Source: Dysgonomonas sp. Marseille-P4361 (GTDB taxonomy: Bacteria; Bacteroidota; Bacteroidia; Bacteroidales; Dysgonomonadaceae). From it: 64,000 nucleotides of DNA. A model generated the notes under the pieces. That model was not told the DNA's origin. It ran no database searches and was given only the letters and a program-made list of their open reading frames with translations. The stretch spans positions 248,001-312,000 of the forward strand of contig NZ_OPYL01000001.1 of the NCBI RefSeq assembly GCF_900343125.1. The letters are read 5' to 3'. This document shows, piece after piece, positions 60,105 through 63,223 of this stretch; position 1 is the stretch's first letter; each line of letters begins with the position of its first letter. Position numbers and translations under genes: made by a program.

Positions 60105-60926
60105 TCATTTAATAACTTTAAAACTACGGTTGGGGTGGGCTGAAGTATCAGGGTTGTACCATACGAAACGGGCTCTGCCGATCACATTTTTAAAGGGGAT
60201 GAAGCCTATCGTGCGAGAGTCCAGCATATTTTGAGGGTTGTCAGACAACATCCAATAATAATCATCTTCGAAAGTGTACGCATCTTGCTCTGCCCCATCC
60301 ATAAACAACCTTCCGTCCTCAATGGAAACATTATCTCCCTGCTCCTGCTCAATTGTCCGTTTATATATTATAAGATTCTTACTATCCAGATCGATTGTCA
60401 TGCCCTTTGCCGGAACAATAATTGAGGTTGCATAATCTATACTATCAACTATCTCTTTTACAGATAGTTGACCAAAACGAACAGAACCCTTATCTGAGAC
60501 AAAAGGTAAACCATTCTGTATCAACACAGTATCTTTTGGAAGAGCTATACATCTGTTCAATATAAGCGAACGCTTGTCTAAAGGCTTATCTATAGCCGAA
60601 GGATCATTGAACAAGACGATTTCATTTCTGCCTATTTGACCTGTAAAAAGTCTTGCATAAGGCAGTTGTATTGCTGTGGAATATGACTTCTTTCCCCACA
60701 GATTATCGAATGTAAAAGGGACAGTAAGTATAGTTATGGGTAGACGAATGCCATATGCAGTTTTATCAATTAAGATTCTGTCCTCAGAGAATAAAGCATT
60801 CTCCATCTGCGAAGAGGAAACAGTAAAAGGTTCAATAAAGAAAGAACGTATACATAAAACGATGAGCAAAGTAATCAATATTACTTTGCCCAAATAAACG
60901 TATATGTTCCTTTTTGTTGAAGACAT
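60105..60926 (-). CDS. Signal peptidase I homologue lacking both catalytic residues
   Basis: 273 aa from ATG 60926 (a TTG at 60941 is in frame). One N-terminal membrane anchor (about 12-31) precedes an S26-type domain. Ungapped alignment to E. coli LepB around Ser90 (PSGSMMPTL) and to the neighbouring LepB places Gln40 (SSSQMENAL) at the nucleophile. The Lys general base in KRCVGLPGE is Asn124 in NRCIALPKD. The later GDNRxNSxDSR box is SDNPQNMLDSR. The fold is retained but peptide cleavage is not expected. It starts 26 bases after lepB and precedes wbqC, so it may be an accessory subunit. Confidence 0.85.
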   Translation of the reverse strand: MSSTKRNIYVYLGKVILITLLIVLCIRSFFIEPFTVSSSQMENALFSEDRILIDKTAYGIRLPITILTVPFTFDNLWGKKSYSTAIQLPYARLFTGQIGRNEIVLFNDPSAIDKPLDKRSLILNRCIALPKDTVLIQNGLPFVSDKGSVRFGQLSVKEIVDSIDYATSIIVPAKGMTIDLDSKNLIIYKRTIEQEQGDNVSIEDGRLFMDGAEQDAYTFEDDYYWMLSDNPQNMLDSRTIGFIPFKNVIGRARFVWYNPDTSAHPNRSFKVIK

Positions 60927-60952: not shown

Positions 60953-62500
60953 TCATTTTTTGTTCCCGGTGGTAAATAGTCTGTCCCATCTGATTCTTCC
61001 ACTAAACCATCCTTTATCTTTATCAAGAGACAACCATATAAACAGAGGTTTCCCCACGATATGATCTTCAGGTACAAATCCCCATGAACGAGAGTCGGCA
61101 GAGTTATCTCTGTTGTCTCCCATCATGAAAAAATAGTCGAATTTGAAAGTATAAGAATCGGCTTGTTCACCATTGATGTACACTTTACCATCTCGATAGT
61201 CAAACTCGTTATGCTCGTAGTTTTTGATACAACGGGCGTAAGCTGCAACTTTATAATCTACATCTGTATCAAACTTGATTGTTTCCCCTTTAGCCGGTAT
61301 CCACAAATCAGGGAAATCACCGGGGGCTACCTTCATGTCATATGTGATTGGATAGATATCTTGTTGAGCATAAAGAGGCATCCCATTTAAAGCATTTATT
61401 GAACGATAGTATTCATTCAAGGGAATAACCTTTTTCACAAATGGTTTTTGCTTAAGCTCTTCAACCATCCCTTTAGTCATATTCACATGAGAGTACAAGT
61501 ATTCAACATCTGATCCATAAGTAGGGAAGAACTGCCTCCATACAGAAGTCGTATCTATTGCATTAAGATCATATGGTGTTGATATACTTTTTATATCATC
61601 TTCGCTTATGCCCAAAGCGGAAAAAGTAGAAGGGGATATTGGCTGTCCACTCACTTGTACGAAATAGAATAATTGCATTTCTTTAGGTGACTCAATAGGT
61701 TTCCCATCAATATTTACAATGTCATCTTTGATAGAGATAGTCTCACCTGGTAAACCGACACAGCGTTTTACGTAATTCTCTCTTCTATCTACCGGACGGT
61801 AAACAATATCACCATACACATCTTTACGCGCATGAACGATAGGACGTCCTTCGTTTATACTTTGAATATTTGAGCGCTGATTAGTTACATCAGAAACACT
61901 CCCTGCATCTTTACAAAGAAGGTAATAATCCCTATTTTGCATATTTACAGCAACAGTATCGCCCGAAGGATAGTTGAATACAACAATATCGTTGCGCTCA
62001 ATTTGTCCTGTACCTTTAAATCTTTTATACTCTAGTTGAGGTTTCTCCAAATAAGATTTGATTCCAAATACAGGAAATGTGTGCTGCATCAAAGGCAACG
62101 ACAATGGAGTCATAGGCGAGCGCGCTCCATAACTCACCTTGCTAACACATAGGAAGTCTCCTACAAGAAGTGATTTCTCGAGTGAAGAACTTGGAATTTG
62201 ATAATTCTGAAAGAAGAAAGTGTTTATAATCCATACGCCCACTAAGGCAAACAGAATTGCATCAACCCAGTCAAGCACTTTTCTCAGAGAAGGATTTTTT
62301 GCATTCCTCCAGCCACTCCAAGGGATAAACTTAGTGATGTATATATCTATAAAAACCGGAATTAGGATCAATACAGCCCAATAGCCTGTCCACAACACAA
62401 ACAGAACACAAAGAACACATGCAATGATTGCATATATCCATTGTCTGATCCCCGGTTTACGTTTTTCTGATTTATTATTCTGATCTGTAGTTTTTTCCAT
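60953..62500 (-). CDS. lepB: Signal peptidase I
   Basis: 515 aa, much longer than E. coli LepB (324 aa). Hydrophobic segments lie at about 21-55 and 80-97. The catalytic nucleophile is Ser106 in IPSSSLEKSLLVGD and the general base Lys245 in YVKRCVGLPGE; the C-terminal MGDNRDNSADSRSWGFVP box is intact. The extra length is mostly an insertion of about 150 residues between the Lys motif and that box. It removes signal peptides from exported proteins at the inner membrane. It begins 6 bases after dapB and is followed by a degenerate paralogue. Confidence 0.96.
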   Translation of the reverse strand: MEKTTDQNNKSEKRKPGIRQWIYAIIACVLCVLFVLWTGYWAVLILIPVFIDIYITKFIPWSGWRNAKNPSLRKVLDWVDAILFALVGVWIINTFFFQNYQIPSSSLEKSLLVGDFLCVSKVSYGARSPMTPLSLPLMQHTFPVFGIKSYLEKPQLEYKRFKGTGQIERNDIVVFNYPSGDTVAVNMQNRDYYLLCKDAGSVSDVTNQRSNIQSINEGRPIVHARKDVYGDIVYRPVDRRENYVKRCVGLPGETISIKDDIVNIDGKPIESPKEMQLFYFVQVSGQPISPSTFSALGISEDDIKSISTPYDLNAIDTTSVWRQFFPTYGSDVEYLYSHVNMTKGMVEELKQKPFVKKVIPLNEYYRSINALNGMPLYAQQDIYPITYDMKVAPGDFPDLWIPAKGETIKFDTDVDYKVAAYARCIKNYEHNEFDYRDGKVYINGEQADSYTFKFDYFFMMGDNRDNSADSRSWGFVPEDHIVGKPLFIWLSLDKDKGWFSGRIRWDRLFTTGNKK

Positions 62501-62506
62501 TATCTG

Positions 62507-63223
62507 TTAAAAATTAAGCATATCCTTCATACCTAAAAAACCTTTCTTACCCTTGGCGAACTCTGCTGCAACAACTGCCCCCAGAGCGAAACCTTTACGG
62601 CTCTTCGCATCATGCTTGATGCTTATTACGTCCGCATCAGATTCATATACGATTTCATGTATCCCCGGAACTTCTCCCTCTCTAATGCAATGAATGGCGA
62701 GATCCGATGGCTTACTTTCTGTTTCGAGAATCCAATTCTCTTTCCTTTCTACATTATCTAAAACACCTTCTGCTAAGGTTATTGCTGTCCCGCTAGGGGC
62801 ATCCAGTTTATGTATATGGTGAGTTTCTTCCATACTGACATTATAGTCAGGATAATCATTCATTATCTTAGCCAGATACTTATTCAATGCAAAGAAAATA
62901 TTTACTCCCAAGCTATAATTAGATGCATAGAAGAATGTTTTACCATCTTCTTCGCAAGCTTTCTTCACCTCATCCAGATGATCGAGCCAGCCTGTTGTGC
63001 CTGCTACTACCGCCACATTAGCTTCGAAACACTTATGATAGTTCTCTATCGCACTATCGGGGGTCGAAAACTCGATTGCAATATCTGCACTTTTAAATGC
63101 ATCCGAATCAAAATCGTGACGATTATTTACATCTATTATAGAAACTATTTTATGACCTCTGCCAAGAGCAATCTTTTCTATCTCATGCCCCATTTTGCCA
63201 TATCCGATAAGTGCAATATTCAT
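62507..63223 (-). CDS. dapB: 4-hydroxy-tetrahydrodipicolinate reductase
   Basis: 238 aa. It reduces hydroxy-tetrahydrodipicolinate in lysine and meso-diaminopimelate synthesis. The N-terminal Rossmann loop is IGYGKMGHEI (6-15). The catalytic region ETHHIHKLDAPSGTAITLAE carries the conserved His-His and KxxxPSGTA binding site. It is slightly shorter than E. coli DapB (273 aa), as usual in Bacteroidota. A TATATTTG -7 box at 63257-63264 is 33 bases upstream, so this is the promoter-proximal gene of the dapB-lepB run. Confidence 0.96.
   Translation of the reverse strand: MNIALIGYGKMGHEIEKIALGRGHKIVSIIDVNNRHDFDSDAFKSADIAIEFSTPDSAIENYHKCFEANVAVVAGTTGWLDHLDEVKKACEEDGKTFFYASNYSLGVNIFFALNKYLAKIMNDYPDYNVSMEETHHIHKLDAPSGTAITLAEGVLDNVERKENWILETESKPSDLAIHCIREGEVPGIHEIVYESDADVISIKHDAKSRKGFALGAVVAAEFAKGKKGFLGMKDMLNF

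Follow-up and report, generated by a model that had tools for sequence, protein, structure and literature searches.

The window analysed here is a stretch of 64,000 nucleotides from Dysgonomonas sp. Marseille-P4361 (contig NZ_OPYL01000001.1, positions 248,001 to 312,000), and the gene of concern lies on its reverse strand at positions 60105..60926. Its open reading frame, profile matches and alignments identify it as a pseudo-signal-peptidase gene, specifying a 273 amino acid member of the S26 (signal peptidase I, SPase I) family without the Ser/Lys dyad. The adjacent lepB (60953..62500, reverse strand) specifies a 515 amino acid SPase I with an intact dyad. Both proteins match PF10502, and a genome-wide family search turned up no S26 gene besides these two. 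The start codon of the paralogue is the ATG at 60926, which is backed by an N-terminus conserved among orthologues; the upstream TTG of the open reading frame listing is not favoured.

Pfam PF10502 matched residues 12–257 of the 273 amino acid protein (E-value 1.4e-24), and the NCBIfam equivalog for signal peptidase I, TIGR02227, gave a score of 97 bits (cut-off 47). Automatic annotation would therefore label this dead copy an active enzyme, and naming genes "signal peptidase I" by TIGR02227 over-counts active enzymes. The S26 profile is joined by the SPase fold, recognised in the sequence and in a predicted structure, with a hydrophobic cleft and residues of the Arg146/Asp273/Asp280 type retained (we take Ser88, Arg146, Gly272, Asp273, Ser278, Asp280 and Arg282 to be the numbering of the E. 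coli enzyme). The predicted structure contains a single N-terminal membrane-anchor helix (residues 3–30 of the model; 60837..60920, reverse strand). E. coli LepB, also of family S26, differs in having both catalytic residues and, presumably, two membrane helices. The LepB encoded next door differs in its intact dyad, its GDNR box, an insertion of 150 residues and N-terminal stretches that look more hydrophobic on inspection.

The dyad of E. coli SPase I is given as Ser90/Lys145 in PMC4049620. The phmmer match to that protein and the alignment to LepB place Gln40 (codon CAG, 60807..60809, reverse strand) in the column of the catalytic Ser90 and Asn124 (codon AAC, 60555..60557, reverse strand) in that of the general base Lys145; neither catalytic residue is present. 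Box E, by alignment residues 228–231 (60234..60245, reverse strand), reads SDNP instead of GDNR. The window's LepB retains Ser106/Lys245 and GDNR, and among LepB rows of at least 420 amino acids both Ser and Lys occupy the dyad columns in 131 of 131. A preliminary description, made from the letters of the window, had proposed an S26 homologue beside active LepB with both catalytic residues replaced and the GDNR box altered, and the profile and alignment evidence bears it out. The gapless alignment to LepB on which it relied holds around both catalytic sites and fails over the whole length, where BLASTP returned two blocks (28% identity over 182 columns N-terminally, 35% over 93 C-terminally).

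In the taxonomic family to which the window belongs, 29 of the 101 genomes searched, its own included, yielded a copy: 19 of the 25 genomes of the same genus and 10 from three other genera. The nucleophile column holds Gln in 29/29 of these copies, and the general-base column holds Ser (23), Gly (3), Cys (2) or Asn (1), with Lys in 0/29. Of the two residues whose conservation across orthologues was to be checked, Gln is conserved and Asn is found in the window copy only; the outcome that would have told against the proposal, Ser and Lys in most orthologues, did not appear. Local decay of one copy, or an assembly error, is ruled out by Gln in all 29 together with intact frames. Another 48 copies (loci L083–L131, 49 loci, L126 being partial) come from Parabacteroides and Tannerellaceae, with some unplaced records among them; here Ala (29), Ser (18) or Thr (1) fills the nucleophile column, and Ser (45) or Gly (3), never Lys, the base column. 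Elsewhere in the order Gln recurs at the nucleophile column, accompanied by Ala, Gly, Ser or Thr at the base; copies with Cys, Gly, Ala or Ser at the nucleophile column occur there too.

A posterior mean site frequency tree was built from 82 selected rows, comprising 72 second S26 copies and 10 LepB, with the catalytic columns masked; it gathered 44 of the 72 second copies, all without Lys, into one clade with bootstrap 100 and a Shimodaira-Hasegawa-like approximate likelihood ratio (SH-aLRT) of 100. The clade spans at least 10 family labels (f1, f3, f21, f23, f30, f59, f60, f91, f108 and f109) plus the named Tannerellaceae. Nine further rows without Lys (L046, L049, L051, L052, L156, L162, L164, L165 and L171) fall outside it, in a second group with mostly DDNR boxes and a varied nucleophile column; second copies have therefore lost Lys and Ser on more than one occasion. 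A quick tree built from 177 rows, the catalytic columns being blanked, set 146 second-type rows apart from 31 LepB rows (SH-aLRT 100), and parsimony on those 146 requires 9 changes for Lys or not and 17 for Ser or not. For the main clade of this tree, with 103 rows, Fitch parsimony reconstructs Gln as the ancestral residue at the nucleophile column; the node has a support of 47, so "Gln first" is only probable. Copies with Gln also occur under five further family labels within the clade, and Gln was probably the early state.

A separate group of second S26 genes with an Asp-led box E (DDNR) was met in other families of the order (for example L037, L041, L043, L046, L047, L050, L144, L161 and L166). 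Their nucleophile column is Lys, Arg, Asn, Leu, Met or Glu, the base Lys is often retained, and the group is, to judge from these columns, a case of repeated nucleophile loss. At L170:2-229 and L171:2873-3199 lepB is flanked on its opposite side by a third S26 open frame with a GDNRHHS box, truncated by the limits of the fetched stretch. The second S26 gene of L165 (G376:C279:21440-22399) carried three in-frame TAA codons in the genome search and formed an unbroken 325 amino acid frame in the open reading frame scan.

Order-wide searches covered 149 and 393 genomes, in overlapping sets, from which the best second-type matches were fetched and 71 could be counted. Close behind lepB lie 55 of the 71, one of them 642 bases away, and Ser or Lys is missing from 53 of the 55; for the other 16 no lepB was found upstream in the fetched stretch, 13 of them retaining both residues and 3 not. 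Fisher's test of lepB adjacency against dyad loss gives a p of 9e-10. This value overstates the case, since the matches were ranked by queries built from dead copies, which favours dead copies, and since the tree holds only 2–5 independent pairs; the association may reflect one piece of history. Within the clade, members with enough contig are encoded close behind lepB, with gaps between open frames of up to 240 bases.

The ratio of nonsynonymous to synonymous substitution (dN/dS, by the Nei-Gojobori method, some dS being near saturation) was determined for the 30 closest pairs among 77 genomes, and ranges from 0.04 to 0.30 for the pseudo gene against 0.03 to 0.17 for lepB. Close pairs of the pseudo gene show purifying selection. 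Of the pairs, 28 are Tannerellaceae-type, one is from family f23 (L081/L082) and one is from Dysgonomonas (L068/L077), the last with a dN/dS of 0.04 for the pseudo gene. Some 44 residues of a variable internal segment are missing from the window copy, which is 37–56% identical to 26 relatives, whose LepB proteins are 48–72% identical to that of the window. Of the 51 columns that 27 or all 28 of the remaining family copies have in common, it breaks only one, and it therefore seems trimmed, not rotting.

The paralogue begins 26 bases behind lepB and ends 13 bases ahead of a gene with a family match to WbqC (PF08889; 59456..60091, reverse strand). On the 5' side of lepB is a gene that we take to be dapB (62507..63223, reverse strand). 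The short gaps suggest that lepB and the paralogue may share one transcript; a scan for promoters and terminators at the locus gave results at chance level. At least 78 named relative loci were listed, some ending too early for their neighbours to be scored; the WbqC-like gene is kept in 76/78 and the dapB-like gene in 71/78. Among the matches listed these loci are mainly from Dysgonomonas, then from Parabacteroides, Tannerella and other Tannerellaceae. Five records titled Prevotella sp. (L055, L057, L058, L063 and L074) have a Dysgonomonas-type locus and a LepB that falls among those of Dysgonomonas, and their labels look wrong.

In the family, 67 genomes have an S26 match and no paralogue, and 24 of them were inspected. 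In 22 of these 24 wbqC comes straight after lepB, in one after 239 bases (distances here being between open frames), and in one it was not found. On the LepB tree the loss label needs four changes, three of them forced by well-supported branches, and L182, the sister of the window's LepB, has lost the paralogue. Since several lineages have lost it, the gene is dispensable, even if it would be useful where it is kept.

Two dead signal peptidases have been described in Gram-positive hosts. We know of no conserved Gln at the nucleophile column of SpsA, the inactive SpsB homologue, and its gene presumably adjoins spsB. Staphylococcus aureus SpsA lacks two conserved catalytic residues and is dispensable, according to PMC12445088. 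By description, the only basis of the comparison, it resembles the window's paralogue in its lost dyad and its position beside an active SPase I gene; the host differs, and in arrangement it is the closest system, on our assumption about adjacency. In Streptococcus pyogenes SipA (LepA), as PMC4049620 has it, Ser/Lys are replaced by Asp/Gly, the cleft is kept, the protein is needed for pilus assembly, and peptide binding was not detected in vitro by its authors. SipA shares with the window's paralogue an SPase fold with a dead dyad and is the best experimental precedent. It differs in its replacements (Gln and Asn/Ser in the window's family) and in its setting, a pilus operon with a class-B sortase, where the paralogue has lepB and the WbqC-like gene as immediate neighbours. 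No pilus or sortase operon was found in those conserved immediate neighbours, genes farther away not having been searched for pilus functions. No published account of a pseudo-SPase clade in Bacteroidales was found in the open-access literature searched. What is new is a widespread, lepB-linked clade of dead SPases with a conserved Gln; dead SPase homologues themselves were already known.

We read the window gene as an ancient, maintained, catalytically dead paralogue of LepB, which would bind exported chains, or LepB itself, without cutting, and give this reading a probability of about 0.5. The maintained pseudoprotease of the preliminary description is upheld by the well-supported single clade, the purifying selection, the conserved operon place and the retained fold; with similar dead copies in many related bacteria, a job other than cutting is probable. 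A tandem second S26 gene behind lepB would have lost the Ser/Lys dyad, its anchor, fold, cleft and structural Arg and Asp residues being kept. Its periplasmic cleft may still hold a peptide, and the protein could have a role in preprotein handling beside LepB.

Several points weigh against this. The function proposed is deduced from sequence, model and evolution. The model is of middling confidence (predicted local distance difference test score 71), with a weak loop preceding Gln40. Among the 22 genomes of the genus that gave an S26 match, three (G019, G160 and G175) have LepB only, three more of that genus, 51–74% complete, giving no match; a large sister group also lacks the paralogue, its lepB running into wbqC. 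Tannerellaceae carry Ala, Ser or Thr in place of the nucleophile, so Gln is dispensable in some lineages, and the losses of Lys and Ser in second copies outside the clade make loss at this position look easy. Constraint on the pseudo gene is about half as strong as on lepB, and with 28 of the 30 pairs Tannerellaceae-type, the case for the window's own genus comes down to L068/L077 and column conservation. Rate covariation across 72 genomes shows nothing specific to LepB: the partial rho between LepB and the pseudo gene, 0.41, is the highest of six pairs and scarcely above the 0.38 between WbqC and the pseudo gene.

The gene might instead be a slow relic, an inactive tandem duplicate of lepB that is merely tolerated and on its way out. 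The losses in several lineages, among them the sister of the window's LepB, agree with this, as do the weaker constraint, the missing 44 or so internal residues, and the independent loss of Ser or Lys in other second copies of the order. Against it stand the low dN/dS values and unbroken frames found throughout a clade of at least ten families, the Gln kept in every family copy, and a window copy that departs from a single conserved column. We consider the relic unlikely.

A dedicated subunit of a LepB complex, needed for LepB stability or site choice and conceptually comparable to accessory subunits in the eukaryotic signal peptidase complex, is likewise doubtful. The position close behind lepB in clade members and the first rank among the six partial rate correlations speak for it, but that correlation is not clearly above the one of the neighbouring gene. 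The insertion of LepB (residues 252–401; 61298..61747, reverse strand), which the preliminary description had offered as a docking surface of about 150 residues, is present with or without the paralogue. It measures 142–174 amino acids (median 152, n=25) where the paralogue is present and 141–159 (median 144, n=24) where it is absent, and its persistence in the 24 loci without a paralogue leaves the docking proposal unsupported. LepB proteins with and without the paralogue can be told apart at no more than four columns, and this grouping tracks the tree.

Very improbable is an enzyme of another chemistry, in which Ser39, Lys55 or the Ser of the base column takes over. Lys55 is invariant in 110/110 paralogue rows but equally so in LepB (131/131), and is therefore probably structural. 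Only 14/29 family copies have Ser at residue 39, which makes a shifted nucleophile unlikely, and the base column may be Ser, Gly, Ala, Cys, Asn or Thr; this pattern of column conservation also makes a replacement base or nucleophile unlikely.

In Bacteroidetes Gln stands at +1 in about 71% of SPase I substrates (the Q-rule), an inner-membrane cyclase converts this Gln to pyroglutamate, and Tannerella forsythia obeys the same rule, according to PMC10653852 and PMC5837995. That a dead SPase of a Q-rule phylum carries Gln where the nucleophile belongs is suggestive. The pseudo-SPase could be a non-cutting reader of preproteins with Gln at +1, or could offer its Gln as a mimic of substrate or product, passing the cut N-terminal Gln from LepB to the glutaminyl cyclase; if true, it would supply the missing link that couples removal of the signal peptide to formation of pyroglutamate. 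As Ala and Ser serve in Tannerellaceae, where T. forsythia obeys the Q-rule, this is only the boldest reading, a long shot. Least credible is that Gln40 is itself a LepB cleavage site whose use releases the protein as a periplasmic form: the Q-rule and the membrane helix that precedes Gln40 in the model fit, but SPase I is not known to accept Pro, Val, Leu, Arg or Ile at -1, one of these precedes Gln40 in 10/29 family copies, and cleavage there would take away the front of the cleft.

The described dead SPase homologues that we found, SpsA and SipA, are Gram-positive; the present one has been retained across many families of a single Bacteroidota order. It stands close behind the active enzyme, in a phylum where cleavage precedes cyclisation of an N-terminal Gln. 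The purpose of a non-cutting signal peptidase thereby becomes testable in cultured relatives such as Dysgonomonas and Parabacteroides.
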